This document shows, one piece after another, positions 12,561-38,900 of a DNA stretch of 49,694 nt. Each line of letters begins with the position of its first letter. The stretch's first letter is position 1. Position numbers and translations under genes: made by a program. Source of the DNA: Syntrophobacteraceae bacterium (lineage in GTDB: Bacteria > Desulfobacterota > Syntrophobacteria > Syntrophobacterales > Syntrophobacteraceae); assembly GCA_031292195.1 (NCBI GenBank), contig JARLHP010000241.1:1-49694 (forward strand), read 5' to 3'. Below the pieces are notes generated by a model that did not search any database, was not told the DNA's origin, and saw nothing but the letters and a program-made list of their open reading frames with translations.

Positions 12561-15500
12561 ATGAATGTTTTTGAGCTCCGGGATCATCTGGTTAACGACT
12601 ACTCCAGCTATACACGTAGTTTCATCAAAATCGCGGACCCTCGTATTTCCCACAAGGTCGATACCGATCTGACGGCAGGGGCGTTCTGGCCGGAACCGCT
12701 GCTCCAGCTCAATCCGTCCTTTCTTGCAGGAGGGACAATCAATCAACTTGTGGAGCAAGGAATGCTTCATCGAGAGTGCGCCAAGATTTTCCAGATTGAC
12801 AAGTCCGACGCCGATCACACCGGCAAACCCTTACTGCTTCATGCCCATCAGCGCGACGCAATCCTCAAGAGCAGGGAACGAAGATCGTACGTATTGACGA
12901 GCGGTACTGGGTCAGGGAAGAGCCTCACATATATCATCCCAATTGTAGACCATGTTTTGCGAAATGGTTCGGGCCGGGGCATACAGGCCATTGTCGTTTA
13001 TCCAATGAACGCTCTGGCAAACAGCCAAAAAGAAGAACTCGCCAAATTTCTGGAGAAGGGCTATCCGGAAGGAAAGCCACCCGTTAGTTTTGCACGTTAT
13101 ACAGGGCAGGAAAAAGGCGCCGAGCGTGAGGCGATCAGGAGCAACCCGCCGGATATCCTGCTGACCAACTATATGATGCTTGAGTTAATGCTTACACGCA
13201 GCGAGGACCGCGAACTTGTCCGGGCCGCTCAGGGGTTGCGCTTCCTTGTTTTTGACGAACTCCATACCTACCGAGGGCGTCAAGGAGCCGATATCGCGTT
13301 GCTGATTCGGCGCTGCCGTCTCGCCCTCGGCGGCCACGAAATTACCTGTATCGGTACTTCAGCCACGATGGTCAGTGGAGGTTCCGTCGAGGAGCAGAAA
13401 GACGAAGTTGCAAAGGTGGCCGAGACGCTTTTTGGTGTTTCGTTCGTTGCTTCCCAAGTAATTGGGGAGACGTTGGAACGTGCGACACCGGAAAAGGATT
13501 TCGGGGTGCAAGAAGTAATACAGACGCTTCGCGAGTCGGTTGAAGCTGACGAGGTTCCACCCGATAACTACGATGACTTCCGCCTTCACCCGCTGGCTTC
13601 CTGGATTGAATCCACCTTTGGCGTGCGAGCCGAAGAAGGCTCCGACCGGCTCGTAAGGCAGGCCCCACGTCGCTTGCAGGGTACGGGAAGCGCTGCGGAA
13701 GCGCTCGCTCACCTCACTTCGACAGATCCAAATCGATGTGCGGCGGTGCTGCGGCGTTTCCTGCTCAAAGGATGCGAACTGCGGCGAAGCGAATCCAGCC
13801 GCTTTCCAATTTTCGCTTTCAGACTCCACCAATTCTTCACGCGGGGCGACACGGTTTGGGCAACCATTGAACCCGAGGACGTGCGTCACCTGGACATGTC
13901 CAAGAAGGGCGCGAAACCCGAAGAGCCGCACAAGCCACTCTTTCCATTGGTATTCTGCCGCCAGTGCGGTGCAGCTTATTACCGAGTAAAGGTGGTTTCC
14001 GATGAACACGGAAAATTCCTTCTTCCACGGGAAGACCGCCGTGAAGAAGACGATGACGTCAACGACAACGCCTACCTCTACATTTCCGAATCTGCACCGT
14101 GGCCGCGAACAGAGGGGCCGGAGTTATTGGAGCGACTTCCTTTCTTCATGAAAGATACCAGCCCGAAAGGCGAGGAGCGCATTCGTCCCGATAGCCGAAA
14201 TGATCGTCCAGAGCCAATCTTTGTTGACGCGACCGGCCGACTCGTATCCGAGGGGCAAGGCATTCCCTCCGCGCTGATCCGCAAGAATTTCCTGTTTTGC
14301 CTCAATTCCTCATGCGGGGTCGCCTATACAAAAAGCCAACGCTCCGAACGCCCCAAACTGGCGACTCTCGGTGTCGATAACAGGAGTACTGCGACCACGA
14401 TCATGGCAGTGCGATCTCTTATCGAATTGCAGGGAGACCGTGATCTTCAGCGCGAGGCTCGCAAGCTTCTGAGTTTCACGGACAACCGGCAGGATGCCTC
14501 TTTGCAGGCAGGCCATTTCAACGATTTTTCGCAGGTGGCTCTTTTACGGTCCGCGCTTCACAAAGCGGCCCAGGACAAAGGTGAGGGTGGACTGAGCCAT
14601 GGCGAACTCTCACGCAGTGTCTTCGATGCCATGCAGCTTGGGTTCGAAGAGTACGCAGCGGACGCTGATGTTCGCGGCCCGGCTAGAAACGCCACCAAAG
14701 ATGCATTTCGCCGCGTCCTCGATTATCATCTTTACCGCGATTTGCAGCGTGGCTGGCGAGTGACAGCGCCAAATCTTGAAGACTGTGGGCTGCTTGCCTT
14801 CGACTATGAAGGGCTAAGCGGTGAAGATGGGCTGCTGGGTGAGGCTGAGCTTTGGGAATCCGGCTTTTCCATTCGTTCTGGTCGAGATACCGAAGAATTC
14901 ATCGAGGCGCCCGAAGCGCTACGGATTTGCCCTCCGGAATTGCGCGAGGAATTGCTCCGCACCTTACTGGACGTTTTGCGTCGGTCTCTGGCAGTTAAAA
15001 TTGATGTCTTGGACCCACAAAAGCAACTCGACCTCGTCGAGCAGACTAAGCCGCGTCTGCTTGAGGACACGGTGTGGTATCTCGAAGATGTGCGTGAGCT
15101 TGTAAAGTCCGTAATCGCCTATCCCCGCCCCAGGAGACCAGAGGATCGCACCGGGTTTTTCATTTCATCCTATGGCGGTTACGGGCGCTATTTGAAGCGC
15201 TCGCTGACTCCTTACGTATCGCCAGGGCAGAACCTTGGACGCGATCAGGTTGATCGAGTTATCCGCTTTCTCCTCCTCTCATTGAGGCGTTACGGCATTG
15301 TCGAGCAGGTGCGCCCCGGAGATGTGGCCGGTTACCAGATCAATCCTGATGCACTGCGCTGGATGCCGGGAGACGGTGAGGTTCGCCCATTGGACCGGAC
15401 CCGTCTTCTAGCGGCGGGAGAGATTTTACCGGAGGTCAACCGCTACTTTGTTGAGTGTTACCGCAGATTCGTTGATCTCAAATGTGTGCTCGAAGCGCGT

Positions 15501-18308
15501 GAGCATACCGCGCAGGTGGCCTCGGAAGACCGAGAAGAGCGCGAGGACCGGTTCCGCACCGGCGATTTGCCTCTCCTTTTCTGCTCACCGACTATGGAAC
15601 TGGGCGTGGATATAGCTCAATTGAACCTGGTAAATCTGCGCAATGTTCCACCGACTCCGGCCAACTACGCTCAGCGTAGCGGTCGCGCCGGTCGCGGAGG
15701 CCAGCCGGCCCTGGTATACACCTATTGCGCGGGGCGCAGCCCTCACGACCAATATTATTTCCGAGAGCCGATCCAGATGGTTGCTGGTGCGGTGGCCCCT
15801 CCGCGTATCGATATTCGTAACCGCGATCTCGTGCGCTCCCATGTTCATGCAATATGGATGGAGGTGGTCAAACCCGATCTCGGTAAGACACTCGCCACTA
15901 TTCTCGATCTTACAAGGGAAGACGGAAAACTGCCGCTCCTGATAAGGGATGCTATAACGCAGGAACTGCGAAACTCCGCGTACCGTTCCTCTGCTCTTGT
16001 CAAAGCAAATCAGCTTGTTGATAGTATTCGGAAAGAGCTGTCAAATGCGGCGTGGTTCCATGAGAACTGGACCAGGGAAATCCTCGACAAGATTGAGCGT
16101 GCGTTCGATGCATCCTGCGAGCGCTGGCGCAGTCTTTACCGGGCCGCCGTTCGCCAGCGGGAATTGCACCACAAGATCATCGGTGATCATTCGCGTCCAG
16201 AAGCCGAGCGCAATCAATCCCGACGGCTGCGCGCCCAGGCGGAAAGCCAGATTCGCCTTCTCACCGAAGCCGAAGGCATCTATGAGGGAGATTTCTATTC
16301 CTACCGCTATTTTGCCGCAGAGGGCTTTCTACCCGGTTATAACTTCCCACGTCTGCCCCTTTCGGCCTATGTCCCAGGCCGTCGTCAGCGCAAGGGCCGC
16401 GATGAGTTTGTCTCACGCCCACGATTCCTGGCCATCTCCGAATTTGGACCGCGTGCCCTGATCTATCACGAAGGGGCCAGATACCGAGTCTACAAGGTAA
16501 ACCTCGATTTTGAAACCGACGATATAGAGGCAACGCACAATTTGGTCACGGCCACGATGAAACGTTGCTCCAAATGTGGCTACGCGCACTTGGAACAAGG
16601 GAACAATCTGGCCGAGATCTGCGACCGTTGCGGTGATGCCTTGGACGTAACCGCACGAATTGAAAACCTCGTCCACATGCAGAACGTCAGCCTCAAGCTC
16701 GCACAGCGTATCACCTGCGACGAAGAGGAGCGCCAGCGTTTCGGCTATAAGCTCCTCACCTCATATCGATTTCCGGAGATTGGGGGCAAGCTCGACCGCA
16801 AGGACGCCGAGGTCTATTGTGGCGGCGTACTAGTCATGCGTCTCAGCTATGGCGACGCCACCGACCTTTACCGCATAAACATGGGTTGGGCCAACCAGCG
16901 GAATCAGTCACCGGGTTTCAAAATTGATCTGGAACGCGGTTACTGGTCGCGCAACAAGGCCGATGAGGAGGACGAGGATGATGCCACCGCCCAGGGAAGG
17001 CTCCAGTCCGTTGTGCCGTACGTCAAAGATACAAAGAATGCCCTGGTAATCGGATTTGAGCCTCCGCGTTCTGGTCCGGAGATGGCGAGTCTGCAATCTG
17101 CGTTTAAGGAAGCCATCCAGAAACACTTTCAACTGGAGCCACGCGAACTCGCTTGTGAGCCGATGCCTTCAGCTCAAGATCGCCAAGAAATACTTTTTTA
17201 TGAGGCATCCGAAGGCGGTGCCGGTGTCCTCCGGCAAATTGTCGAAGATCCGGCAGTATTGCCGCTGCTGGTCCGGCGTGCCTTAGAGATTTGCCACTTC
17301 GACCCGGATACCATTCAGGACAATAGTCTACAGACGTGCGGAAAAGCATGTTACGAGTGTCTCCTCGATTATGGTAACCAGCCTGATCACAAGGACCTCG
17401 ACCGCCATCTCATACGCGATTTACTGACTGAGTTGCGTGGCGCCGAGTGTCGCCCCGCCGGCGGCGCGGGATCTCGTGCAGAGAGGATGGCTGCCCTACG
17501 CAAGCGTTGCGACAGCACGTTAGAAAAGCGATGGCTTGATCGCGTTGATGAACTTATGCTCCGCCCCCCAAGTGATGCCCAGTTCCTAATCGAACCCGGC
17601 CACACACGTCCGGACTTTTACTACCGGGAGCACAATGCCGCTATTTACATTGACGGTCCTCCACACGATACCCCGGACCAAATCCGTGAGGACGAGTCCA
17701 TCACACATCGACTTATGGAGATGGGCTACATCGTCATCCGTTTCCACCACCATGTAGACTGGAACGAAATATTTCGTTGGCATCCGGACATTTTTGGTGT
17801 TGCGGCGCGGCAGGAAGAACAGGAACAAGAGCTTGCGGTATTGACGTTGCGATTCGCTAAACTTGACGGCACAACCTTCACCGATAACGAACGGAAACAG
17901 TGCCGCAGGGAAGGAGATGCTGCGCTGGAGTCCGTTATTGGAGCGATTGCTTCCCCTGATGGAGTCCGTTTGGGAATCCGCTTTGCTGGTGATGGGACTT
18001 CTTCTTATTGGTATGAAATCGCCATAATCGCCGTGGGTCTTATCGCTGGAATCCCCATCGTCCTCCATCTCCTCGGGGAGGCGCTGGAGGCAGGCGGCGA
18101 TCTTACATCCTTACTTGCGACCTCGATGACTGTTAGTGGTGCATCACTTAAATCCATCGCCTGGCGTATGAGTCCCAAAGATCCTAATCACACCTCAGCC
18201 CAAAGACCCGGTTGTTTTGGCCTAAAAGACCAACTCGACCGCAGATTCAAAAGATGCAGAGACTGTGGCTTCCTCCAAGAGTGCCTGAACATCGTAGAGG
18301 CTTTATAG
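12561..18308 (+). CDS. DEAD helicase-DUF1998-nuclease-like fusion (DrmA/DrmB or DruE-like)
   Basis: A 1915-residue protein. The N-terminal superfamily 2 helicase has Walker A S-G-T-G-S-G-K-S at about 114-121, DELH at 232-235 and G-T-S-A-T-M at about 265-270. A zinc-type insert has C-R-Q-C near 465 and C-L-N-S-S-C near 578; S-F-T-D-N-R-Q-D-A-S lies near 637. The second helicase half has G-V-D-I and Q-R-S-G-R-A-G-R-G-G near 1010-1050. Then come a C-S-K-C...C-D-R-C knuckle near 1335-1360 and a DUF1998 region near 1540-1615 with CGKACYECLLDYGNQ. Near 1683-1703 there is a DUF559/Vsr-like fold, R-P-D-F...A-I-Y-I-D-G-P-P-H-D. The tail has C-R-D-C and a further Cys. DISARM DrmA plus DrmB, or Druantia DruE, have matching parts. 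ATG follows GGGAG by 7 bases. Start of a tight four-gene operon. Confidence 0.85.
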   Translation: MNVFELRDHLVNDYSSYTRSFIKIADPRISHKVDTDLTAGAFWPEPLLQLNPSFLAGGTINQLVEQGMLHRECAKIFQIDKSDADHTGKPLLLHAHQRDAILKSRERRSYVLTSGTGSGKSLTYIIPIVDHVLRNGSGRGIQAIVVYPMNALANSQKEELAKFLEKGYPEGKPPVSFARYTGQEKGAEREAIRSNPPDILLTNYMMLELMLTRSEDRELVRAAQGLRFLVFDELHTYRGRQGADIALLIRRCRLALGGHEITCIGTSATMVSGGSVEEQKDEVAKVAETLFGVSFVASQVIGETLERATPEKDFGVQEVIQTLRESVEADEVPPDNYDDFRLHPLASWIESTFGVRAEEGSDRLVRQAPRRLQGTGSAAEALAHLTSTDPNRCAAVLRRFLLKGCELRRSESSRFPIFAFRLHQFFTRGDTVWATIEPEDVRHLDMSKKGAKPEEPHKPLFPLVFCRQCGAAYYRVKVVSDEHGKFLLPREDRREEDDDVNDNAYLYISESAPWPRTEGPELLERLPFFMKDTSPKGEERIRPDSRNDRPEPIFVDATGRLVSEGQGIPSALIRKNFLFCLNSSCGVAYTKSQRSERPKLATLGVDNRSTATTIMAVRSLIELQGDRDLQREARKLLSFTDNRQDASLQAGHFNDFSQVALLRSALHKAAQDKGEGGLSHGELSRSVFDAMQLGFEEYAADADVRGPARNATKDAFRRVLDYHLYRDLQRGWRVTAPNLEDCGLLAFDYEGLSGEDGLLGEAELWESGFSIRSGRDTEEFIEAPEALRICPPELREELLRTLLDVLRRSLAVKIDVLDPQKQLDLVEQTKPRLLEDTVWYLEDVRELVKSVIAYPRPRRPEDRTGFFISSYGGYGRYLKRSLTPYVSPGQNLGRDQVDRVIRFLLLSLRRYGIVEQVRPGDVAGYQINPDALRWMPGDGEVRPLDRTRLLAAGEILPEVNRYFVECYRRFVDLKCVLEAREHTAQVASEDREEREDRFRTGDLPLLFCSPTMELGVDIAQLNLVNLRNVPPTPANYAQRSGRAGRGGQPALVYTYCAGRSPHDQYYFREPIQMVAGAVAPPRIDIRNRDLVRSHVHAIWMEVVKPDLGKTLATILDLTREDGKLPLLIRDAITQELRNSAYRSSALVKANQLVDSIRKELSNAAWFHENWTREILDKIERAFDASCERWRSLYRAAVRQRELHHKIIGDHSRPEAERNQSRRLRAQAESQIRLLTEAEGIYEGDFYSYRYFAAEGFLPGYNFPRLPLSAYVPGRRQRKGRDEFVSRPRFLAISEFGPRALIYHEGARYRVYKVNLDFETDDIEATHNLVTATMKRCSKCGYAHLEQGNNLAEICDRCGDALDVTARIENLVHMQNVSLKLAQRITCDEEERQRFGYKLLTSYRFPEIGGKLDRKDAEVYCGGVLVMRLSYGDATDLYRINMGWANQRNQSPGFKIDLERGYWSRNKADEEDEDDATAQGRLQSVVPYVKDTKNALVIGFEPPRSGPEMASLQSAFKEAIQKHFQLEPRELACEPMPSAQDRQEILFYEASEGGAGVLRQIVEDPAVLPLLVRRALEICHFDPDTIQDNSLQTCGKACYECLLDYGNQPDHKDLDRHLIRDLLTELRGAECRPAGGAGSRAERMAALRKRCDSTLEKRWLDRVDELMLRPPSDAQFLIEPGHTRPDFYYREHNAAIYIDGPPHDTPDQIREDESITHRLMEMGYIVIRFHHHVDWNEIFRWHPDIFGVAARQEEQEQELAVLTLRFAKLDGTTFTDNERKQCRREGDAALESVIGAIASPDGVRLGIRFAGDGTSSYWYEIAIIAVGLIAGIPIVLHLLGEALEAGGDLTSLLATSMTVSGASLKSIAWRMSPKDPNHTSAQRPGCFGLKDQLDRRFKRCRDCGFLQECLNIVEAL

Positions 18309-18312
18309 AATC

Positions 18313-21144
18313 ATGAATGCCAATCTTTCCAAACCCGGCACTCTTATCAACGCGCGCGGTCGCGAATGGTTGGTGTTGCCCGAATCTTCAGATTCGCTCC
18401 TCATCGTGAGACCGGTGGGCGGACTCGATGAAGAAGTCACCGGGATCTTGCCCGCCATCGAGCCTGTCGAATCAACCGCGTTTCAATTGCCTACAAGAGA
18501 CGACTTGGGCGATTTTGCTTCAGGCAAACTCTTGCGCGAAGCCGCACGCCTCTCAACCCGCGCCGCCGCAGGTCCTTTTCGCAGCTTCGGGCGCATTGCC
18601 GCCGAGCCGCGACCCTATCAGCTCGTACCGCTTATGATGGCGCTGAGAATGGACCCCGTGCGCCTTTTGATCGCTGACGACGTCGGAATCGGCAAGACTA
18701 TCGAGGCCGCCACCATCGCCCGCGAACTCCTGGACCGTGGCGAAATTCGGCGGTTGGCCGTGCTGTGCCCGCCACACTTGGCGGAACAATGGCAGCGCGA
18801 ACTGGCCGAGAAGTTTCATATTGAGGCAGAGCTGGTCCTGAGCAGTACTATCCAGCGGCTGGAACGCGATCTGCCAGTGGGCGTTTCAGTTTTCGACCGC
18901 CATCGTTTCACCATCGTCTCTACGGACTTCATCAAGACCCCACCTAGGGCTGCGGATTTCATTATTAAATGCCCCGAGTTCGTGATTGTTGACGAGGCTC
19001 ATGGCTGCACCCTGGCTGGAGGCGTTGGGCGCGGACGCCAACAGCGTTTTGACCTGCTTCGGCGTGTTGCGCAATCTAGATCGCGCCATCTGGTGCTAGT
19101 CACCGCCACGCCCCATAGCGGCAACGAGGAAGCGTTTCGTTCTTTATTGAGCTTGCTCGATGAGGAGTTTGCAAACCTGCCGCCCGATCTCGACAAAGCG
19201 GGGAGAGAGGGAATACGCCGAAAGCTTGCTCAGCATCTTGTGCAACGTCGTCGGAAGGATATTGAGCACTACCTTCAGACCGATACATCCTTCCCTTCGC
19301 GATTAGATAAGAAGCCTGAGCTAACTTACACGTTTAGCAAGGAGTACCGCGCCCTCTTCCACGACATACTCGACTTCGCGCGCGAGTTCGTTTCGGAAAG
19401 CGATGAGAGCCAAAGACGACGGCGCGTACGATACTGGTCGGCTTTAGCCCTGCTGCGCTGCGTTTCATCCAGCCCGGCAGCGGCTGCCGCGACGCTTCGC
19501 AGCCGCGCCGCAGTGGATGAGGCCTCTGATAACGAAGTGGACGAAGTGGGGCGGCGCACGGTGCTCGATCTGGACGATACCGACGATGTTGTCACGCTCG
19601 ATTTTAGCCCTGGTTCCGATACGGAAACCGGGGCTGATAGCATTCGTCGTAAACTGCTGGAGTTTGCACGGAGGGCCGAGGCGATCTCACCTGCTACCGA
19701 TAATAAGTTGCAGGGCGCGATTGGCGAGATCAAGGCCCTGCTAAAGGACGGCTTTCTGCCCATTGTTTTTTGCCGGTTCGTGGATACTGCCCACTACGTG
19801 GCCCGTCAGCTTCGCGAGGCGCTGCCTGCCAAGGTGCAGGTTGAGTCGGTGACCGGGCTGCTGCCTCCTGCCGAGCGCGAAGTCCGAATAGCTACACTGG
19901 TTTCCGGATCGGGTCAATATGTACTCGTATGCACCGATTGCCTGGCGGAGGGTGTCAATCTTCAGCAGCATTTCAACGCTGTGTTGCATTACGATTTGGC
20001 CTGGAATCCTACCCGTCACGAGCAGCGCGAAGGCCGGGTGGACCGCTTCGGTCAAGACAGATCTGTGGTGCGCGTCGTCACGTACTATGGGACTGACAAC
20101 CCAATAGACGGTATGATCCTCGAAGTTCTAATCCGCAAACATAAAAACATTAAGAGTGACCTCGGTGTCACCGTCGCGGTGCCAGGCTCCAGTGAGCAGA
20201 TCGCGGAGGCGCTTTTCCAGGGCGCATTGTTCCGGAAGAAGACCAGCGCACATCCTCAGCAATTATTACTTTTTGACAAGGTCGAGCAGAAGAAGAGGGC
20301 CCTTCATGCCGAGTGGGAGAACGCCCGCGACCGCGAAAAGGTGAGCCGCTCCCGCTTCGCCCAGCATACGTTAAGCCCCGAAGCCGTGGCTGCGGAGTTG
20401 GAAAGTGTCCGCGCCGCCATCGGACGTAATGAGGATGTGGCTCGCTTCTTCGACACTATTCTGCAGTCGGCTAACATTCCGGTGCAAGGAAATGGCAAGG
20501 CCGTCACCGTGCATCTCAGCAATGAAGCGCCGCGTGCGCTACGCCAAGCGATTGGCCGTGATGATCCGTTTACCGGGCGTTTTGAGCTTCCACTTGGGAA
20601 AAACGAGGTATATCTTGGCCGCACCAGTCCGGTAATCGAAGGTCTTGCGAGCTGGACACTTGACCAGGCACTCGACCCAGTTGCCCGCGACGCCAAGGCC
20701 GTGGCTGCCCGTTGTGGATTCATCTCCACTTCGGCGGTGAGTGTCCGAACCACGTTAGTAGTGGCCCGCTTCCGCTACCACCTGCAGATCACTGGCGCCG
20801 ATACGGAAACAATCTTATGCGAGGAGATAATTCCGCTCGCCTGCACAGGGCCGGCGGATACGCCCAAGTGGCTCACACCTGAAGAGGGCGAATGCCTGCT
20901 AACCGCCAGGCCCGAGCGCAACCTTCTCCCCACTGCCATTGACCAGCAACTCGGCCTGCTGCTTGCAGCCCTCCCAATACTCCGAGAGGCACTTGAACCT
21001 GTTGCTCTGGAACGTGCCGCCCTCCAACTCGCAGCCCACGAACGCGTGCGCGACGCCGCTCGCACCAAGGGCCGCCTCACCATCCAGCCCGTTCTCCCGG
21101 TGGACGTGCTGGGAGCCTATGTCCTTTTGCCGAGGCTAAACTGA
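18313..21144 (+). CDS. SNF2/RapA-type helicase, DrmD-like
   Basis: A 943-residue Swi2/Snf2 ATPase, predicted to translocate on double-stranded DNA. Walker A is A-D-D-V-G-I-G-K-T near 119-127, the DEAH box is V-D-E-A-H-G near 225, and motif III is T-A-T-P-H-S-G-N near 263. The second lobe has P-I-V-F-C-R-F near 482 and motif VI Q-R-E-G-R-V-D-R-F-G-Q near 573-583, with N-P-I-D-G-M-I-L-E-V-L downstream. The last 350 residues are not recognised. This layout matches the SNF2 helicase that marks class 1 DISARM (DrmD). It starts 4 bases after the 1915-residue helicase and ends 1 base before the methylase ATG, so the three are translated together. A RapA-like housekeeping role is unlikely in this context. 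Confidence 0.85.
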   Translation: MNANLSKPGTLINARGREWLVLPESSDSLLIVRPVGGLDEEVTGILPAIEPVESTAFQLPTRDDLGDFASGKLLREAARLSTRAAAGPFRSFGRIAAEPRPYQLVPLMMALRMDPVRLLIADDVGIGKTIEAATIARELLDRGEIRRLAVLCPPHLAEQWQRELAEKFHIEAELVLSSTIQRLERDLPVGVSVFDRHRFTIVSTDFIKTPPRAADFIIKCPEFVIVDEAHGCTLAGGVGRGRQQRFDLLRRVAQSRSRHLVLVTATPHSGNEEAFRSLLSLLDEEFANLPPDLDKAGREGIRRKLAQHLVQRRRKDIEHYLQTDTSFPSRLDKKPELTYTFSKEYRALFHDILDFAREFVSESDESQRRRRVRYWSALALLRCVSSSPAAAAATLRSRAAVDEASDNEVDEVGRRTVLDLDDTDDVVTLDFSPGSDTETGADSIRRKLLEFARRAEAISPATDNKLQGAIGEIKALLKDGFLPIVFCRFVDTAHYVARQLREALPAKVQVESVTGLLPPAEREVRIATLVSGSGQYVLVCTDCLAEGVNLQQHFNAVLHYDLAWNPTRHEQREGRVDRFGQDRSVVRVVTYYGTDNPIDGMILEVLIRKHKNIKSDLGVTVAVPGSSEQIAEALFQGALFRKKTSAHPQQLLLFDKVEQKKRALHAEWENARDREKVSRSRFAQHTLSPEAVAAELESVRAAIGRNEDVARFFDTILQSANIPVQGNGKAVTVHLSNEAPRALRQAIGRDDPFTGRFELPLGKNEVYLGRTSPVIEGLASWTLDQALDPVARDAKAVAARCGFISTSAVSVRTTLVVARFRYHLQITGADTETILCEEIIPLACTGPADTPKWLTPEEGECLLTARPERNLLPTAIDQQLGLLLAALPILREALEPVALERAALQLAAHERVRDAARTKGRLTIQPVLPVDVLGAYVLLPRLN

Positions 21145-21145
21145 T

Positions 21146-24100
21146 ATGAGCCGCCGAAGTAACGCTTTCCAGACCATCCGATCCGAGGGCGGCTTGCTGC
21201 CACCCGACCTGCTGCGGCGAGTGCTCGAACCCAAAGAGAAACTCCCCGGGACCCGCCCGGAGGACTATGGTCTGCCGGTTGGCGAACGTCTCAACGAAGT
21301 CATCACCCAGTCATGGAATCGCCTGCGCAAACATTGGATGGAGTTCCAGAGTGTCGCCGCGAATCTACCGGATGGCGAACCAGCCACCGGCCTCACGAAC
21401 GAAAAATGGAGCCTGCCGCTCCTGCGTGAGCTGGGTTTCGGCCTGCTTCCCACCAGCGCCGGCCCCGAAGTCGGCGGCCGTACCTACGCCATTAACCGAT
21501 TGTTCGGCTCTGTGCCTGTTCATCTGGTTGGCTGCGGCCTGAGCCTCGACCGCCGTGCCGCTGGAGTGCGCGGAGCTGCAGCCGCAAATCCGCACGGCCT
21601 GGTTCAGGAATTCTTAAATAGAAGTTCCGGTCACCTTTGGGGCATTGTATCGAACGGCCTTCAATTGCGTGTTCTGCGAGACAGTCAAGCCTTGTCGCGC
21701 CAATCATTCCTTGAGTTCGACCTTGAGACCATATTCGCTGGAGAGGTCTATTCCGACTTTGTACTGCTTTGGCTAATGGCCCATGCAACGCGCTTCGCCC
21801 CGCGTAAAGGGGACCGGCCTGAGACCTGCTGGCTGGAAGAATGGACAAAGCTTGCCAATGAACAGGGAACCCGCGCTCTTGGGGATTTGCGCACAGGTGT
21901 GGAAAAAGCCCTCAAAATCCTGGGCGAAGGGTTTACCAGTCACCCGAAGAACATTGCCTTGCGTAACGATCTGCGCACCGGCCAGATACCGCTTGCCGAC
22001 TTTCACGGCCAACTATTGCGTCTGGTGTACCGTTTGATCTTCCTTTTTGTTGCCGAGGACCGTACGATTGAGGGGCAGTCTATGCTCCATCCGAGCGACG
22101 AATCCGACACAGCCCGGCTCGCTCGGGAACGCTATGCGGCTCACTACAGCACAGGCCGCCTGCGTGAATTGGCATCAAGAATTAAGGGTAGCCGCCATGG
22201 CGATCTGTGGAAGCAGTTTCAGCTTCTTGTCGGCGCGTTTTCCGGTAGTGACGATTTCGTATCGGTACGCAAGCATCTGGCCCTCCCTGTATTGGGCGGC
22301 TTCCTTTGGGACCCGGCCTCTACTGCCGCTCTTAATAGTGCCGAACTGATCAATCACGACTTCCTTGAAGCCCTGCGCCATCTCGCTTTCACCCGCCAGG
22401 GCAAGGTGTTGCGGCCCGTGGACTATAAAAATCTTGGCGCTGAGGAGTTGGGCGGAGTTTATGAAAGCTTGCTGGCCCTCACCCCACAGATTAGCGCGGA
22501 CGGCGCCCGCTTCACTTTCGCTGAATTCGCCGGAAACGAACGTAAGACTTCCGGGTCCTACTACACACCGGATTCTCTCGTACAATGCCTCCTGGACTCA
22601 GCACTGGACCCGGTGGTGGAGGAGGTGATCAAGGGTAAGACCGGCGCTGATGCCGAAAGGGCCATTCTCTCTCTCAAGGTTTGCGACCCGGCTGTTGGTT
22701 CCGGCCACTTTCTTGTCGGCGCGGCACACAGGCTGGCACGGCATCTTGCCCGAGTGCGGGCGTTGGGACAGGGTGAAAGCGAGCCCTCTCCGCTCCTCTA
22801 CCAACGCGCCTTGCGCGACATAATAGGCCGCTGTCTCTACGGCGTGGACGTGAATCCCATGGCCGCCGAGCTGTGCCGTGTGAGCCTCTGGCTCGAAGCA
22901 CTTGAACCCGGCAAACCACTCTCTTTTCTAGACCATCACATACGCGTCGGCAACAGTCTTCTGGGAGCTACGCCTGAACTAATTGCCGCCGGACTGCCTG
23001 ATGACGCCTTTAAACCCATCGAAGGCGACGACAGAGCGGCCTGTGCTGAACTGAAGAAGCGCAACAGGGCCAAGCGCAAGGGATGGGGGCCGCTCTTCGC
23101 GCGGCAGGACGCCGAGACTCAGGCCCACCTGCAACAGGCCTCCGCCGCTCTTGAAGAGATTTCCGATGACCGGCCGGACGATATTCATGCTAAAGAACTG
23201 GCCTTCCGCCGTCACGAACAGACCGAGGAATACCGCCAAAAGAAAAAGCTTGCTGATGTATGGTGCGCCGCCTTCGTCATCCAGAAACACTTTCTGACTG
23301 ATTCCAACGACCCTGGATTGCCTTCAAACCAGCCTTTCGGTATCACCCAGGGCCACCTCAACGGGTTGGCGAGTGGCTGGCCGCTAACCAGCGAACTCAG
23401 TGCTGAGATTGACTGCCTCTCACTCCGATACCAGTTCTTCCATTGGCACTTGGCTTTCCCGGATGTCTTTGCCAGCGGCGGATTCCACTGTGTGCTTGCA
23501 AACCCTCCGTGGGAGCGGGTGAAGATCCAGGAAAAGGAATGGTTCGCCGAGCGCTGCCCCGAAATCGCTAACGCGCCCAATTCGGCTGCTCGCAAGAGGC
23601 TAATTGAGACGCTAAAGGTAAGCGACCCCGACCTCTACCAGCAGTTCCTCGACGACTTACGCAAGGCCGATGGTGAAGCCCATCTCATGCGCAATAGCGG
23701 CTGTTATCCACTCTGTGGCCGGGGCGATATCAACCTCTACACTATTTTCGCCGAAAGGATGCGGAATCTGCTCAACGACGACGGTCGCGTCGGCTGTGTG
23801 TTGCCCACCGGAATAGCAACAGACGACACCACTAAGTTCTTTTTTCAGGACATAATTAGAAAAAAGTCCCTCGCCAGCCTTTACAGCTTCGAGAACGAGG
23901 AGTTTGTGTTTCCAGAGATTCATCACGCCACAAGATTTTGCCTCTTCACCATCGGCAGCAGAGCAAGAACGCTTCCTGCTGTTCCCGAGTTCGTATTCTT
24001 TGCCCGCAAGGTTGATCAACTACGCGAAGCAGAACGCCATTTCACGCTCTCTAGTGATGAGATCGGGCTACTTAACCCCAACACGCTCACTTGCCCGATC

Positions 24101-25873
24101 TTCCGGAGCCGTGCCGACGCGGAACTTACCAAAGCCATTTACAGACGTATCCCGGTACTTGTCCGCGAGGCCCAGATAGACCACCCTGAGGAAAACCAAT
24201 GGGGTGCCCGCTTCAGCACAATGTTCCACATGTCGAATGACTCCCACCTCTTCCGCACACGGGTACAATTGAAGATCGACGGCTGGCTGTTGGAGGGCAA
24301 CATCTTCCGCAAGGACGGTGCAGAGTATCTGCCACTCTATGAGGCGAAGATGATCCACCACTTCGATCATCGTTGGGGGACATATGAAGGGCAAACAAAG
24401 GCACAGGCAAACCAGGGCAAGCTACCCGAGCTAGATGAAACACAGCATGCAGATCCGAATCTCCTTGCTTTCCCAAGATATTGGGTGAAAGATGAAGATG
24501 TCCGTGGGCAACTTGCTGCCGTTTGGAACCGTATGTGGTTGACCGGATTTCGTGACATTACTGGTGCGACTGTCTTCCGAACTGTCATCCTGTCCATAAT
24601 CCCAAGAGTCGCTGTCGGTCATACTTGCCCGGTTATACTGCCTTGTAGAAACGCGTCGGACGTCTCTTTGCTAGTTGCCGTGCTCAGTTCCTTTGCTATC
24701 GACTTCACCGCTCGGCAGAAGGTCGGCGGAACCCACCTTACTTATGGCTACTTTAACCAACTCCCTGTTCCGTCACTCTCCACTTTTAGTAATGCCTGCA
24801 TGTGGTCCAATAACATACAATTCTTGCGAGATTGGTTTCTGCCGCGGATCATGGAAATGACTTACACGGCCTGGGACTTGGAGCCGTTTGCGCATGACTG
24901 TCATTATTCCGGCCCACCTTTCCGCTGGGACGAAGAACGCCGCTTTCTCATTCGCTGCGAACTTGACGCCGCCTTTTTCCACCTCTACCTGCCTACCGAA
25001 CCGGACGGCAACTGGCGCCAAGCCGAAAACGAAACTGCTGAAGACTTGCTGCTCCTCAAGGCCAGCTTTCATACCCCTCGAGACGCGGTGGCTTACATAA
25101 TGGAAACTTTCCCTATTGTGAAGCGTAAGGATGAGGCACGATGGGGAACATACCGCACCAAGGACACAATTCTCGAAATCTACGACGCCATGGCGGTAGC
25201 GATCCGCACCGGCGTTCCTTTCAAGACCAGCCTCGTCCCTCTTCCTGGTCCGCCCACGGACGCAACTGAAAACTTTATACCCATGGACCAGTGGGATCTC
25301 ACTGAATGGCCTTCCCACATTCATCCGCCTAGGCAGAGACCAATCGAGAGGCCCAAAGAGGTTCCATTGGAGGAGTTCGCTTACCCCATTTCCAACACGG
25401 ACAAAGCCATTTGTGCAGCATCCCTGGCCATTGTGGAACAATCCCAAAGCATTTCCAGCGCTGATCACCTCGACTGCCTGCTGCTCGCCACGCACCCGGA
25501 ATGGTGCAAAATCTTTCTGGACCAGAACGAGATTCGTGCTTTTGAGATCGCCAGGAATTCCGCTCCGAATTCACTTTTTGTTGCCGGCAATCAATCGATC
25601 CGATGGAAAGAGTGCAGGGACTACCTTGAGCATCGGCATGCCATCATTGTCCAGCGCAAGGATAGTAAGCGACAACCGGTCAGTCCAGGAATCACCCTTG
25701 AGTCTGTCCGAAATGGTCTGCCCGACGGTGTTGATGAGATTGCCGGGTTTGCTCTCAAAGCTATGAGGCGTATCGAAGTACTGCGTAAGAACCTGTCCTC
25801 AGCCCTGAGCGAACAGCGCAGGATTATTCATGTATTAGAAAAACAGAATACGCTTTATCGGCTTGCCGCATAG
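21146..25873 (+). CDS. Eco57I-type N6-adenine DNA methylase, DrmMI-like
   Basis: A 1575-residue protein of the large PglX/type IIG methylase class. Residues 1 to about 460 look like a nuclease-fold N-terminus (L-W-G-I-V-S-N-G-L-Q-L-R-V-L), but I cannot find a P-D...E-x-K catalytic set where one would expect it. The methylase core has S-G-S-Y-Y-T-P near 470, the SAM motif V-C-D-P-A-V-G-S-G-H-F near 511-521 and the catalytic N-P-P-W at 786-789, giving N6-methyladenine. A target-recognition-like region follows, with Y-F-N-Q-L-P-V-P near 1205 and P-F-R-W-D-E-E-R-R near 1255. In DISARM the equivalent methylase marks self DNA. If the N-terminus is inactive, cutting must come from another subunit. 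Confidence 0.85.
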   Translation: MSRRSNAFQTIRSEGGLLPPDLLRRVLEPKEKLPGTRPEDYGLPVGERLNEVITQSWNRLRKHWMEFQSVAANLPDGEPATGLTNEKWSLPLLRELGFGLLPTSAGPEVGGRTYAINRLFGSVPVHLVGCGLSLDRRAAGVRGAAAANPHGLVQEFLNRSSGHLWGIVSNGLQLRVLRDSQALSRQSFLEFDLETIFAGEVYSDFVLLWLMAHATRFAPRKGDRPETCWLEEWTKLANEQGTRALGDLRTGVEKALKILGEGFTSHPKNIALRNDLRTGQIPLADFHGQLLRLVYRLIFLFVAEDRTIEGQSMLHPSDESDTARLARERYAAHYSTGRLRELASRIKGSRHGDLWKQFQLLVGAFSGSDDFVSVRKHLALPVLGGFLWDPASTAALNSAELINHDFLEALRHLAFTRQGKVLRPVDYKNLGAEELGGVYESLLALTPQISADGARFTFAEFAGNERKTSGSYYTPDSLVQCLLDSALDPVVEEVIKGKTGADAERAILSLKVCDPAVGSGHFLVGAAHRLARHLARVRALGQGESEPSPLLYQRALRDIIGRCLYGVDVNPMAAELCRVSLWLEALEPGKPLSFLDHHIRVGNSLLGATPELIAAGLPDDAFKPIEGDDRAACAELKKRNRAKRKGWGPLFARQDAETQAHLQQASAALEEISDDRPDDIHAKELAFRRHEQTEEYRQKKKLADVWCAAFVIQKHFLTDSNDPGLPSNQPFGITQGHLNGLASGWPLTSELSAEIDCLSLRYQFFHWHLAFPDVFASGGFHCVLANPPWERVKIQEKEWFAERCPEIANAPNSAARKRLIETLKVSDPDLYQQFLDDLRKADGEAHLMRNSGCYPLCGRGDINLYTIFAERMRNLLNDDGRVGCVLPTGIATDDTTKFFFQDIIRKKSLASLYSFENEEFVFPEIHHATRFCLFTIGSRARTLPAVPEFVFFARKVDQLREAERHFTLSSDEIGLLNPNTLTCPIFRSRADAELTKAIYRRIPVLVREAQIDHPEENQWGARFSTMFHMSNDSHLFRTRVQLKIDGWLLEGNIFRKDGAEYLPLYEAKMIHHFDHRWGTYEGQTKAQANQGKLPELDETQHADPNLLAFPRYWVKDEDVRGQLAAVWNRMWLTGFRDITGATVFRTVILSIIPRVAVGHTCPVILPCRNASDVSLLVAVLSSFAIDFTARQKVGGTHLTYGYFNQLPVPSLSTFSNACMWSNNIQFLRDWFLPRIMEMTYTAWDLEPFAHDCHYSGPPFRWDEERRFLIRCELDAAFFHLYLPTEPDGNWRQAENETAEDLLLLKASFHTPRDAVAYIMETFPIVKRKDEARWGTYRTKDTILEIYDAMAVAIRTGVPFKTSLVPLPGPPTDATENFIPMDQWDLTEWPSHIHPPRQRPIERPKEVPLEEFAYPISNTDKAICAASLAIVEQSQSISSADHLDCLLLATHPEWCKIFLDQNEIRAFEIARNSAPNSLFVAGNQSIRWKECRDYLEHRHAIIVQRKDSKRQPVSPGITLESVRNGLPDGVDEIAGFALKAMRRIEVLRKNLSSALSEQRRIIHVLEKQNTLYRLAA

Positions 25874-25885
25874 GAGTTGGTAAAA

Positions 25886-27940
25886 ATGGACCTATACAAT
25901 GAATTGAACTTAGTTCAGGTCCGATCCGAACCGGATGTATGGGTGAATCGAATCGTCATCCTTGAGCGGATCACACCCAAACCGGTCTTCATCAGGAATA
26001 TTGCCTTAACTTGCGGCCTGAACATCATCTGGGCGGAAGATGCTGAGGACGGCAACTCGGAACCCAACATCACAGGTCACAGCGCCGGCAAGACGACATT
26101 CTGTAGGCTATTCCGATATATTCTGGGAGAAAGGACCTTCGGCACAAAGGGTTCAATTGAGCTTATCCGAAAAGCGTTTCCAGAGGGTTACGTCGCTGCC
26201 GAGATCCATGTTCGTGGCCGAAAATGGGCAGTTCGCCGTCCATTCGGAAACGGGCGAATGTCGTATATCGAAGAAGATGCAACTATTGAGGAGCTTCTTG
26301 AACTTGGCGGGCGAAAGGCAAATCAGGCCCTGTACCCTAAAGAGATAGGTTTGGAAGGCCTACCAGACGAACTTGCGACAGGCGAAGTTGTTGGCAAAGG
26401 GGAATCAATTCGATGGTCTCATGTCCTTGCCTGGTGCACTAGGGACCAGGAATCACGTTTTCAAAACATCCACAGCTGGCGCTCTCCTCGAAGTGAAGCA
26501 GGTACACCCTCCTTAGGATCTCCAAAGGCTGGCCCGCTGTTCATCATGCGAGCGGTGCTGGGCCTCTTTCTGCCTGACGAGCTCAAAGCGGAAGAAGGGC
26601 TTTCGGAACTGGAAGGGGATAGAGATAAGGTACGCAAGGAAATTGAGGAGAAGCGGCGAGAGCCTCAGTTCCGAGTGAACCATTATGAAGAGCAGCTTCG
26701 GCGATGTCTGAAATCCGTTTTGCCGGACGAACCCGACATTGACTCGCGGCACTTCCGCTCCGGGAACCTATTCACAAAAGATTTGGAACGTCTGACTGTC
26801 AAAGCACGAAATGCACTCCATGAGCTTATAAGCAAAGGCGAACGGGAGCGCCAAACCCTGCAAACCCGGATTGATGAACTCGGCGCAGAAGCTAAGCGCC
26901 TAAAGAATGAGCTCGATGAACAGGAAAAACATTTTGCATTGGGTGATGCAGCTGGCCAGGAGTTCTGTGCCGGACTGTCCGGAGCAGATGAACAACTCAA
27001 AAAAATCGAAGAAATTAAGAATAGCAAATGCATATTGGGCGATATTTTTTTCCGGGAATGCAGCCATATTAAGTCCCGCAAAGGCATTCTGCAAATCACA
27101 GAGGTTCTAGATGCCCGAGCTATGAAGGAGGCGGAAGCTGCACGAGCCAAGCTGTTAGAAAAAATCACCGTGCAGAAAGCTTCTCTCCAAAACGAAATCG
27201 ACCTCATCACAGCAGAGAAACTAAAGGCACTTAAAAGACGTGAGGCTTTAGCGGCTCACATCCCGGAACAACAGGGCTTGAAGCGGGATCTTGAGGCCTC
27301 ATATAAGGAGCTTGTGACCTGGATAAATCGAAGGGACAAACCTGGAAGTTATGAAGAGCTTGATCGATTAAAGGGAAAACTTAACTCTGTAGAACAGAAT
27401 ATCTCAAAAATCGAGAAGCAACTGGGAGCAGCAATCCGGCAGCATAATCAGGATCTGAAACGGCTGACCGGGATTTTCTCCAAGGCTGTAAGATCAGTGC
27501 TGTTGTCTGAGCAGTATGGCGGGAAGGTGAGCCTTGAGAACCGCGAACTGGATTTTCGAATCACCCACGGGCCGAATATGAGCGGTGAGGCAGTCGACAC
27601 GCTCTCCGTTCTCCTTGCTGACGTTTGCTCACTAATCTATAACACAGTCTCTCAAAAGTGCCATTTGCCCGGCTTCCTCCTGCATGACAGCCCCCGCGAG
27701 GCTGACCTCGGTATAGGAATCTACAAGAGCTTCATCAGGTTCGTCGCGTCCATTCAGGAGCACTTTGGCGGGGCTCAAAGTTGCCCGTTTCAGTACCTGA
27801 TCACGACCACGACCGCGCCCCCGACGGAACTGCGGAATGATAAATATCTCAAGCTGCTGCTGAATGCCTCTACTCCTGAAGGGCTTCTGCTTGGTCGTAA
27901 CATAGGGGCCGAGATACCTCAACAAAGGTCAATCTTTTGA
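25886..27940 (+). CDS. SMC/Rad50-like ATPase of the island
   Basis: A protein of about 684 residues built like a small SMC or Rad50: an N-terminal P-loop, a long charged helical middle (about residues 235-535, e.g. L-Q-T-R-I-D-E-L-G-A-E-A-K-R-L) and a C-terminal ATPase half. The P-loop reads T-G-H-S-A-G-K-T-T-F-C-R-L-F-R-Y, with Thr where the first Gly of the usual G-x-x-x-x-G-K-T stands. The C-terminal half has M-S-G-E-A-V-D-T-L-S, which could be the ABC signature, and F-L-L-H-D-S-P-R-E, a Walker-B-like strand as in DUF2326-type ATPases. ATG 25886 is chosen because AGGAG at 25872-25876 precedes it by nine bases and overlaps the methylase stop. It is not a named DISARM gene. Its position suggests a DNA-end or conformation sensor, which is inference. 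Confidence 0.75.
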   Translation: MDLYNELNLVQVRSEPDVWVNRIVILERITPKPVFIRNIALTCGLNIIWAEDAEDGNSEPNITGHSAGKTTFCRLFRYILGERTFGTKGSIELIRKAFPEGYVAAEIHVRGRKWAVRRPFGNGRMSYIEEDATIEELLELGGRKANQALYPKEIGLEGLPDELATGEVVGKGESIRWSHVLAWCTRDQESRFQNIHSWRSPRSEAGTPSLGSPKAGPLFIMRAVLGLFLPDELKAEEGLSELEGDRDKVRKEIEEKRREPQFRVNHYEEQLRRCLKSVLPDEPDIDSRHFRSGNLFTKDLERLTVKARNALHELISKGERERQTLQTRIDELGAEAKRLKNELDEQEKHFALGDAAGQEFCAGLSGADEQLKKIEEIKNSKCILGDIFFRECSHIKSRKGILQITEVLDARAMKEAEAARAKLLEKITVQKASLQNEIDLITAEKLKALKRREALAAHIPEQQGLKRDLEASYKELVTWINRRDKPGSYEELDRLKGKLNSVEQNISKIEKQLGAAIRQHNQDLKRLTGIFSKAVRSVLLSEQYGGKVSLENRELDFRITHGPNMSGEAVDTLSVLLADVCSLIYNTVSQKCHLPGFLLHDSPREADLGIGIYKSFIRFVASIQEHFGGAQSCPFQYLITTTTAPPTELRNDKYLKLLLNASTPEGLLLGRNIGAEIPQQRSIF

Positions 27941-28096
27941 TCGCTTGGGCGCGACGACACACTTCAACAGATCGAGGAAATTTTTAACTGTAAGTTTCTA
28001 CCTCTGTTACGTCATGCCCTCTGCCCTCCATTGCCTTTTCCGGGGTAAGGGCACGGGGCCGGCAGGGTGGTCCATCCCACTGCGCGGTTGCACCGC

Positions 28097-29224: not shown

Positions 29225-29344
29225 CCACCTTTTTTAAGAAAGACCGAACGCCGGGTCAAGTCTATCCGGGGCCTGGCCCAATTTGGAATGCCCGACGCGC
29301 GGAAGGCCAGGCCACTGCCGGGGCTGCACAGACAAATAGTTGAT

Positions 29345-29806: not shown

Positions 29807-29958
29807 AGTGATTGTTCCGTCCTGCGATCATGCCCGTGAACAGGGCTCGGGGGTTATCCTTGTCGGTGACCATGGGGGGCGAGGAAGGCTTGCCCCAAGC
29901 CGGCCGGAGCCATACTCCGGCCGGCGAGTTCGGGCAAGGGAATGCCGCAAATCCAAAA

Positions 29959-32472: not shown

Positions 32473-32517
32473 CAGGCGCCGCGCCAAGAACTGCTTCAAA
32501 GGGAGCATTGAGGAATC

Positions 32518-33306: not shown

Positions 33307-33345
33307 TCGTTCGTACTTAACCAAATTAACCCTGGAGGTGGAGTG

Positions 33346-34296: not shown

Positions 34297-34413
34297 TGGC
34301 CAAAATCTTAGGCCTCGGTCGTTTTACACAAGAACTTCGGGTAATGATTTTCGCATGGACGGTTCGGCAACTCATTCAAGTTGTTTCATGAATTCCAATG
34401 GGGATACATAAGA

Positions 34414-36030: not shown

Positions 36031-36061
36031 GGTGGGGTCCCATGGGGGAAAGGAGCGTTTC

Positions 36062-38839: not shown

Positions 38840-38900
38840 TTTTGGTATTATTTGCGATTATACAAAATAGATTCGATTGGAAACGGGAAAAAGAAAGCAC

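Follow-up and report, generated by a model that had tools for sequence, protein, structure and literature searches.

A probable ARMADA type I operon with a methylase tail domain and an SMC-like ATPase gene, a pair found on several classes of restriction systems

Closest described systems

Restriction enzymes and SMC complexes are usually viewed as separate arms of bacterial immunity. Druantia consists of DruE and type-specific partners; Lamassu (ABC-3C) combines LmuA, LmuC and LmuB, of which the middle component, LmuC, is missing in some systems. DISARM class 1 has separate drmA and drmB genes and the drmC nuclease. ARMADA type I, described in a preprint (Bell et al. 2025, PMC12458937), comprises a YprA-like helicase, a BrxHII-like helicase and a PglX-like methylase, encoded in that order, and passages of the same source group ARMADA-type helicases with Druantia. 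In ARMADA type II, the fourth gene encodes a GajB-like helicase with a RelE domain, and the BrxHII-PglX pair precedes YprA.

Here we analyzed a stretch of 49,694 nt (hereafter, the window) from a Syntrophobacteraceae bacterium (GCA_031292195.1, contig JARLHP010000241.1), with a four-gene operon at positions 12,561-27,940. Genes 1-3 of this operon have the same parts and the same order as ARMADA type I, with the helicase and DUF1998 in a single chain, but the window adds a C-terminal tail to the methylase as well as an SMC gene. Type II does not fit, given that the fourth gene of the window encodes an SMC ATPase and the order is different. The main text of PMC12458937 contains none of the terms 'SMC', 'Lamassu' and 'Rad50', and a literature search of incomplete coverage found no account of an SMC protein joined to ARMADA or of the tail. 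The sequence-only reading knew no named system with this exact gene set; genes 1-3 match an already named system, ARMADA type I. What is new here is that the SMC gene travels with a domain of ~180 residues that forms a C-terminal extension of the methylase. The operon is very likely ARMADA type I with this additional cassette. As an explanation of the whole, we favor, with moderate confidence, ARMADA type I combined with a portable cassette of tail and SMC that would function as an ATP-gated clamp.

Operon organization and gene identities

The four genes lie on the + strand, to which all coordinates below refer. The gaps between the ORFs are 4, 1, and then either 3 or 12 bases, depending on whether gene 4 starts from TTG or from ATG 25886; the 12-base gap is the better reading because the counterpart in a congener (G002) starts at the equivalent of this ATG. 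The ORF coordinates and the G002 start confirm this arrangement of co-directional genes, including the spacing of 4, 1 and 12 bases. The arrangement exceeds what chance would produce, since the same four genes in the same order were found in one congener and in 7 plasmid records. Genes 2, 3 and 4 occur together in 50 of the 80 genome loci retrieved with the SMC gene alone, and 49 of these 50 also contain part or all of gene 1; these loci are the best 80 of 234 relatives ranked by match to the SMC protein of the window, a ranking that favors loci resembling the window's own kind.

Sequence comparison identified each of the four products. Gene 1 (12561..18308, 1915 aa) encodes a YprA/DruE-like DEAD helicase, the homolog of the ARMADA type I YprA, with DEAD (2e-25), Helicase_C (4.7e-12) and MZB (1.1e-10) matches in Pfam, all in one ORF; MZB is the DUF1998/MrfA zinc domain. 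In PADLOC, the protein matches DruE3 (2.8e-114) far better than any DrmA model (best 9.7e-17), and in searches of PDB sequences it matches 9tu7_Y (1.9e-50) and YprA (6znp_A, 1e-23). Residues 1640-1746, approximately (17478..17798), probably form a Vsr/DUF559-type nuclease region, as suggested by a weak DUF559 match (E 0.023, under the Pfam cut-off) and by candidate nuclease residues conserved in part of the 74 aligned rows (D1685 in 48, D1698 in 43, H1702 in 42). A Vsr assignment has been reported for the C-terminus of the ARMADA helicase (PMC12458937); a BrxA-like insertion is a further character of the type I helicase. The C-terminal extension that follows (residues 1760-1915, 17838..18305) is peculiar to the window's copy, with 1 of the 74 rows occupied.

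Gene 2 (18313..21144, 943 aa) encodes a SNF2/BrxHII-like helicase with the SNF2 and Helicase_C domains in Pfam. Its PADLOC matches are PDLC02853, labelled DpdE (1.2e-238 over residues 8-940), DrmD (1.5e-79) and BrxHI (3e-58). Despite the top label, a Dpd system was rejected, as no 7-deazaguanine modification gene was detected with Pfam among the 20 neighboring ORFs; we infer that the PDLC02853 model describes an ARMADA-type helicase. Gene 3 (21146..25873, 1575 aa) encodes a PglX/DrmMI-like adenine methylase with an NPPW motif, matching Eco57I/N6_Mtase in Pfam (Eco57I 2.9e-17) and DrmMI in PADLOC (1.8e-63); NPP[WFY] is retained in all 81 gene 3 homologs over 1200 aa. The SMC-associated tail occupies the end of this protein (residues 1397-1575, approximately; 25334..25870).

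Relationship to DISARM and Druantia

The sequence-only reading had presented the locus as a defence-like operon derived from DISARM class 1 by rearrangement, with drmA and drmB fused and drmC swapped for the SMC gene. The defence-like character and the DISARM kinship hold: gene 2 and gene 3 belong to families shared with DISARM class 1, as their DrmD and DrmMI matches show, and three DISARM-type loci (L029, L050, L064) carry the tail and SMC cassette. The rearrangement does not. In the window, neither separate drmA and drmB genes nor a drmC gene were seen, and no PLD-type Pfam match was found among the 20 neighboring ORFs. Because gene 1 is closest to DruE of Druantia and conforms to the ARMADA type I layout, its fused architecture is normal for the group rather than the product of a DrmA-DrmB fusion, in line with the passages of PMC12458937 that group such helicases with Druantia. 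Nor is a replacement of drmC by the SMC gene supported: the annotation of 12 gene 2 regions lacking SMC shows no DrmC next to the methylase (plasmid annotation being incomplete), and L064 is a complete DISARM locus with the SMC cassette in which DrmC is retained. On these grounds, we reject the rearranged DISARM as extremely unlikely. Druantia itself shares a DruE-like gene with the window, but among the best 25 PADLOC matches of each protein, the Druantia match is confined to gene 1, no Druantia partner gene was seen among the neighbors (by Pfam only), and a methylase and a SNF2 helicase are present.

The SMC-like ATPase

Gene 4 (25886..27940, 684 aa from the ATG; a TTG start at 25877, giving 687 aa, is possible) encodes an LmuB/Rad50-like SMC ATPase. 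The protein matches no Pfam family above the cut-off; its closest PADLOC family is LmuB (2.2e-17), and its AlphaFold model (mean pLDDT 89.4) matches YydD, LmuB, Rad50 and SMC structures, with modest TM-scores of 0.51 and below on the query. These matches, together with the recurrent co-occurrence described below, bear out the early assignment of the fourth protein as an SMC/Rad50-like member of the operon. The protein consists of Rad50-like heads and a short coiled coil, as in LmuB of Lamassu, with no effector domain recognized by Pfam or in the predicted structure. The CxxC hook is present in 16 of 62 relatives and absent in the window, where two nearly invariant cysteines are retained.

The Walker A motif, GHSAGKTT (26075..26098), includes G71 and K72, which are conserved in all 62 aligned rows. 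In the Walker B region, HDSPREAD (27683..27706), H603, D604, P606, R607, E608 and D610 are equally invariant, and position 605, which directly follows the Walker B aspartate, carries Ser in the window; across the rows it is Ser in 51, Cys in 10 and Gly in 1. In SMC ATPases, this position normally holds the catalytic glutamate. The substitution, although at a single position, makes a fast motor less likely than a clamp or sensor that is gated by ATP and works slowly.

The small LmuB-like ATPase with the altered Walker B position is the feature that the window has in common with Lamassu, whereas the partner of the SMC protein is here a whole restriction system and the protein lacks the CxxC hook. 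No match to LmuA or LmuC was found for the four proteins (best 25 PADLOC matches each) or for the tails, with neighboring genes compared by Pfam only, and membership in Lamassu was rejected. Nevertheless, Lamassu parts could be reused: the SMC protein would be an LmuB-type sensor of DNA ends or hairpins, the restriction enzyme would replace LmuA, and the tail would be the counterpart of the C-terminal docking domain of the effector. LmuB being the closest PADLOC family, and Lamassu entries being among the top folds, agree with such reuse, as do passages of PMC10586767 in which the variable C-terminal domains of LmuA effectors are thought to dock other components; if docking holds, the principle would be the same. 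We consider this reading fairly unlikely, given the missing LmuA and LmuC matches, the tail comparisons presented below, and the fact that a full restriction system has its own target recognition.

The tail domain and its coupling to the SMC protein

The tail is C-terminal to the methylase and comprises ~180 residues. It is absent from the tail-less methylase of locus L139, which stops just past WPPHIHPPK, the point at which the methylase of the window continues. The monomer model of the tail has a pLDDT of 91.3; structure prediction for the tail and the SMC protein was performed on monomers only. No Pfam or PADLOC family is common to the 71 tails compared, and a Foldseek search returned 493 matches at E<=10 (best E 0.09), none of them at E<=0.001 and no Lamassu chain among the best 50. 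Identification of the tail as LmuC is thus unsupported by either sequence or fold.

Among the 77 ARMADA type I loci placed on the tree, the tail is found in 57 of the 58 with SMC and in none of the 19 without it. The residues past the core methylase model number 97-236 in SMC-containing loci (median 182; 45 measurable, from 44 contigs) and 2-47 in loci lacking SMC (n=16). With the window and its seven near relatives left out of its construction, a tail profile recovered the window at 2.9e-25, although this stricter held-out profile missed L032 and L029. The iterated profile, which is partly circular, matched 85 of 6,908 ORFs at E<1e-3; each of the 85 lies directly 5' of an SMC gene, 83 of them within 50 bases of it. 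No tail was detected in five SMC loci with at least 1.5 kb of upstream sequence (L008, L015, L047, L082, L092).

Tail divergence tracks the SMC protein and not the methylase that carries the tail: over 56 loci, tail distances correlate with SMC distances at r 0.924 (partial 0.911) and with those of the N-terminal part of their own methylase at r 0.369, and none of 2000 permutations gave as high a correlation. Joint gain or loss of tail and SMC was detected in 9 independent supported pairs, 8-9 with changes in the same direction and 0 in the opposite direction (p 0.004-0.008). On the gene 2 tree, the SMC label changes 12 times, compared to 17.2 in shuffles, with at least 9 changes on supported branches; the label is therefore clustered, and the coupling is partly owed to shared descent.

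The alignment of tails was also compared with 395 genomes of the phylum. At E<=0.001, it matched four of them, namely those of the window, G301, G196 and G150. The G196 match is a 219-aa ORF (2.5e-7; 2.8e-10 with a profile built from ARMADA tails only) and that in G150 is weak (1.6e-4) and not reproduced by the ARMADA-only profile; both lack SMC and neither is on a known restriction protein. Because two of the four matches in this genome-wide control lack SMC, we lowered our confidence slightly, and still regard the tail as quite likely to be the partner of the SMC protein.

Spread of the cassette over restriction systems

Upstream of the SMC gene, genes 2 and 3 are present in 58 of 93 loci and gene 3 only in 9 more, in agreement with the expectation of the sequence-only reading that the ATPase co-occurs with the other genes. 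Conversely, the gene 2 family was detected in 24 of the 395 phylum genomes and is adjoined by SMC only in that of the window, so that the ATPase is an optional part of ARMADA type I.

On sequence evidence, the cassette is used by at least five restriction classes besides ARMADA type I. The ARMADA-only tail profile matched, each time directly 5' of an SMC gene, DISARM methylases (1e-12, 2e-7, 2e-4), an IIG-like enzyme (1e-26), type III Res subunits (1e-15, 1e-13) and HsdS (3e-13), and a type ISP enzyme from a locus used in no profile carries the tail (1.4e-10) 7 bases 5' of the SMC gene. The carriers thus represent six classes: ARMADA type I, DISARM class 1 (on the methylase), type I (HsdS), type ISP, type III (Res) and IIG-like. 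Type III systems carry the tail on Res instead of on the methylase; this counts against a fixed functional partner and suggests use of the last gene of the operon. We consider it moderately probable that the docking tail and the SMC protein are a portable, general upgrade for ATP-driven restriction systems, which would be moved as a unit and become fused, with the reading frame kept, to the last gene upstream, adding an SMC clamp that acts on DNA judged foreign.

A plain neighborhood effect would be an alternative, in which SMC and tail were ordinary in ARMADA type I lineages and the other cases were rare recombinants with no functional meaning. ARMADA systems do make up the majority of the SMC loci with sufficient sequence (58 of 93 in all), the choice of the best 80 of 234 loci by the SMC protein of the window favors this kind, and the SMC label is clustered. 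However, the repeated label changes on supported branches, the tail distances that barely follow the methylase, and the occurrence on six restriction classes render this explanation very unlikely.

The breadth of carriers is also expected of a guard. An ABC/SMC-like ATPase is linked to restriction systems in PrrC and PARIS, and RloC resembles Rad50; passages of PMC12707154 (for PARIS, also of PMC12839542) describe PrrC and PARIS as guards sensing restriction inhibition. By analogy, the tail-seated SMC protein would monitor the restriction complex, and a phage anti-restriction protein would trigger suicide or a back-up nuclease, for which an HNH gene, found within 200 bases after SMC in 23 of 58 ARMADA loci, would be a candidate. 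At this frequency, HNH was rejected as an obligate partner. The SMC protein differs from PrrC, RloC and PARIS in that it has no toxic effector domain and that its attachment would use a dedicated tail of the restriction protein; no candidate effector was seen beside SMC in the window (Pfam on neighboring ORFs), and the activity of ARMADA type II did not involve abortive infection (PMC12458937). A guard function is accordingly unlikely, slightly more so than the reuse of Lamassu parts.

Proposed mode of action

Under the favored clamp explanation, the tail on the last restriction-modification protein and the SMC protein encoded just downstream would be the two parts of the cassette, the tail docking the SMC protein, presumably dimeric as LmuB is, onto the restriction enzyme. 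Self DNA would be marked by the methylase, unmethylated foreign DNA would be bound and then translocated by the SNF2 and YprA motors, and the tethered SMC would clamp the foreign DNA or an end made on it. The clamp might license or focus the nuclease, that is, the Vsr-like C-terminal domain of YprA or, elsewhere, often an added HNH, and the damage would thereby be shielded from reversal by repair or recombination. We propose this end- or target-clamp mechanism tentatively, with a little more doubt than conviction. If true, an SMC clamp has been repeatedly wired to differing restriction systems by one tail, combining the two arms of immunity and joining the restriction-modification and SMC (Lamassu/Wadjet) worlds in one machine, and a tail on the last restriction protein followed by an SMC gene becomes a rule for annotation. 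Natural close pairs with and without the cassette, such as the window and L139, would make the contribution of SMC to a restriction enzyme directly testable.

Genomic context

Five congeners retain the Mla genes, and neither the operon genes nor the TauE, CLC and kinase genes to the right were found in the congener stretches read. Further SMC queries against plasmids added no records, and there was no match in phage records. A single-protein scan of viral contigs detected no SMC relatives; a scan with a 10-sequence alignment found three, two of them cut at the contig end.

Identity of the operon

All four genes of the operon lie on the + strand of the window. Gene 1 (12561-18308) encodes a YprA/DruE-like helicase with an MZB domain, gene 2 (18313-21144) an SNF2 helicase, and gene 3 (21146-25873) an Eco57I/DrmMI-like adenine methylase, each identified with Pfam and PADLOC profiles; gene 4 (25877/25886-27940) encodes a coiled-coil ATPase, LmuB-like by PADLOC (hereafter, SMC). 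In parts and gene order, genes 1-3 fit the ARMADA type I defence system as described in the preprint PMC12458937. The putative Vsr domain of gene 1 was detected weakly (DUF559, E 0.023), and gene 1 residues D1685, D1698 and H1702 are present in 42-48 of 74 aligned rows. The terms SMC, Lamassu and Rad50 do not occur in the main text of PMC12458937. We read the window operon as a novel form of ARMADA type I.

Gene 1 carries a C-terminal extension of 156 residues (17838-18305) that is missing in the 73 other aligned homologues, among them the one from the congener G002 (~84% identical). The PADLOC model PDLC02853, labelled DpdE, matches ARMADA-type helicases from nearly end to end, and loci called Dpd automatically on the strength of this model may therefore be ARMADA.

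Gene 4 is an optional member of ARMADA type I operons

Gene 4 belongs to the operon. Genes 1-4 occur in the same order in the congener (loci L004 with L005) and in seven fetched plasmid records (L007, L009-L014); the tblastn search of plasmids with gene 4 returned 10 records, nine of which were fetched, including plasmid L008, where SMC is present without ARMADA genes, and L015, a distant relative. Scanning genome contigs with the SMC alignment yielded 234 relatives, and genes 2, 3 and 4 are found together in 50 of the best 80 of these loci. Upstream of SMC in 93 loci (the window, G002, plasmids, genome contigs and viral contigs, with L016 removed as a duplicate), genes 2 and 3 are present in 58, gene 3 only in 9, and other genes or too little sequence in 26. 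Among 196 relatives, gene 4 was matched in three genomes: that of the window, with a single match, G002 (61% identity) and, weakly, G076.

The SMC gene is, however, optional for ARMADA type I. The gene 2 family is represented in 24 of 395 genomes from the window's phylum at E<=1e-100, the window's among them, and the SMC family in two at E<=1e-30, adjoining gene 2 only in the window's genome. Of the 23 other gene 2 loci in the phylum, nine retain the end of the methylase gene plus 2.5 kb of following sequence and could be scored; none of the nine has an SMC gene. On plasmids, gene 2 relatives were detected in 65 records at E<=1e-60, many of them near copies, and the four-gene set in seven. The 12 gene 2 regions fetched for comparison had no match to the SMC profile, and contain three-gene ARMADA or are followed by McrBC-like, HNH or other genes.

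In the SMC-less ARMADA type I operons L099, L100 and L102, McrB/McrC-like or EVE/DUF2357 genes are located downstream, as though alternative add-ons shared one position. Of the 58 ARMADA loci with SMC, 23 have an HNH_2 endonuclease gene no more than 200 bases past the SMC gene (L009:14711-15487, L013:19884-20627 and L014:19911-20684, among others), and this family also adjoins SMC-less ARMADA (L106, L108). In the congener, two further genes lie past the SMC gene (L004:4290-8904): one encodes another SNF2 helicase, of 1048 aa, and the other a protein of 484 aa that matched no Pfam family.

A C-terminal tail of the methylase accompanies SMC

Methylases with a downstream SMC gene are longer (median 1497 aa; 59 rows from 58 contigs) than those without (1358 aa; 17 rows; p 7e-9). 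Beyond the core profile, which was built from ten SMC-less methylases, 97-236 C-terminal residues remain in the 45 measurable SMC+ rows. For SMC- the figure is 2-47 (16 rows, including eight seeds of the profile); rows with an early-ending core match (14 SMC+, 1 SMC-) were omitted. In the tail-less relative L139, the methylase ends at the point where the window methylase continues into the tail.

A held-out tail profile, from whose training set the window and seven close relatives had been excluded, matched the window methylase at 2.9e-25 and part of a divergent methylase class (L007, L010, L049, L059 and L078) at <=1e-37; its best SMC-less match was L138, at 0.1, and L032 and L029 were not among its matches. 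The iterated tail profile, partly circular because earlier matches were included, gave 85 matches at E<1e-3 in 6,908 ORFs, of which 1,903 came from 59 SMC-less loci with some overlapping stretches. All 85 directly precede an SMC gene, 83 of them within 50 bases.

No tail was detected in ten SMC loci. Five of these (L062, L089, L091, L097 and L098) have just 0-106 bases upstream; L008, L015, L047, L082 and L092, with more upstream sequence, are for now regarded as real exceptions. The tail-less SMC relative at L008:16267-20692 is carried by a Paracoccus plasmid, where an HNH gene follows it, and that at L082:8779-14157 lies among hydrolase and planctomycete cytochrome-type genes.

The tail and SMC behave as one unit

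A quick tree of gene 2 (SH-aLRT support only) covers 77 loci, 58 SMC+ and 19 SMC-. The SMC label switches 12 times along it, with nine or more of the switches on supported branches; when the labels are shuffled, the mean is 17.2. With the iterated profile, the tail was detected in 57 of the 58 SMC+ loci (the exception is L092) and in none of the 19 SMC- loci. Nine pairs are independent and supported; tail and SMC agree in 8-9 of them and disagree in none (p 0.004-0.008). Over 56 loci, tail distances track those of SMC (r 0.924) far more closely than those of the N-terminal region in the very methylase that carries the tail (r 0.369); the tail-SMC partial correlation is 0.911, a value reached in 0 of 2000 permutations. 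The sample is biased, in that SMC+ loci were collected by searching for SMC and SMC- loci by searching for gene 2.

A tail-alignment search of the 395 phylum genomes produced four matches at E<=0.001. Two, in the window and in genome G301, adjoin an SMC gene. The G196 match, a 219-aa ORF (L182:6767-7426; 2.5e-7, and 2.8e-10 with the ARMADA-only profile), sits among many small ORFs with no SMC nearby; the weak G150 match (1.6e-4), also without SMC, was not repeated by the ARMADA-only profile. Therefore, the coupling between tail and SMC is not absolute. Both proteins identified as tail-bearing restriction proteins in this sample have SMC.

The cassette is shared with other restriction systems

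A profile built from ARMADA tails only placed the tail at the C-terminal end of several other proteins: IIG-like enzymes encoded next to an SNF2 helicase gene (L024 and L025; the host family search was run for L024), type III Res (L046, L096), type I HsdS with adjoining HsdR and HsdM (L032), and DISARM class 1 methylases (L050, 1.1e-12; L029, 1.9e-7; L064, 2e-4). DrmA and DrmB were confirmed in all three DISARM loci, and DrmD, DrmMI and DrmC were assigned by profiles for L064. The tail was also found in short ORFs (L035, L037 and, at a contig end, L030). The host model stops before the tail start in the Res and L064 proteins, and overlaps it by 12 residues in HsdS. One new locus from the phylum SMC search, G301, used in no profile, encodes a type ISP restriction enzyme upstream of SMC (Type_ISP_C in Pfam, 5.6e-108). 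This enzyme has a tail match at 1610-1724 (E 1.4e-10), and the SMC gene follows after seven bases. No description of the tail-SMC cassette or of its reuse across systems was found in the searchable papers.

Predicted structures and possible function

The tail model, predicted with confidence (pLDDT 91.3, pTM 0.78), is helical with two short strands. Nothing in the PDB matches it at E<=0.001; ORC and MarR-type proteins, which have winged-helix folds, are numerous among its weaker matches. Comparison of 71 tails with Pfam and PADLOC revealed no family common to more than one tail and none matching the tail of the window.

The SMC model (pLDDT 89.4) has 47 structure matches at E<=0.001, with modest TM-scores (<=0.51 on the query), led by a YydD-YydB model (1.9e-18) and followed by Lamassu (4.6e-14), Rad50, MukB, Wadjet JetABC and SMC heads. 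All 62 SMC rows have an intact Walker A. ATPases of the SMC kind usually have Glu after the Walker B aspartate; in these rows Ser stands there 51 times, Cys 10 times and Gly once. Lamassu LmuB generally has Gln at this position, according to PMC10586767. Two Cys positions near the apex of the coiled coil hardly vary (59/62 and 60/62), although CxxC is present in only 16 of 62 rows, the window's not among them.

Each host class identified is a restriction system in which recognition of a site or of methylation is coupled to an SF2 motor, the IIG-like case only via the neighbouring SNF2 gene. An LmuB-like clamp tethered to a restriction machine would sit on DNA already judged foreign. The tethered SMC might clamp the target or the cut ends and so let the nuclease complete its work, a tentative proposal. 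One live if rather unlikely rival is a Lamassu-like sensor employing the restriction enzyme as its effector; another, a guard against anti-restriction proteins, appears improbable. With less than even confidence, we favour clamping of the target or cut ends over the sensor and guard readings.

Surroundings of the operon

An Mla transport cluster lies upstream of the operon. Past the operon, positions 28001-30000 show an AT skew of 0.20, and none of the three ORFs scanned there has a Pfam match. The cluster further downstream (30556-39695) encodes a response regulator, a histidine kinase, two TauE exporters, a CLC channel and three Cytidylate_kin2-like proteins. A large SNF2 helicase (1651 aa) with HEAT and SNF2_assoc regions is encoded at 44154-49109 on the - strand.
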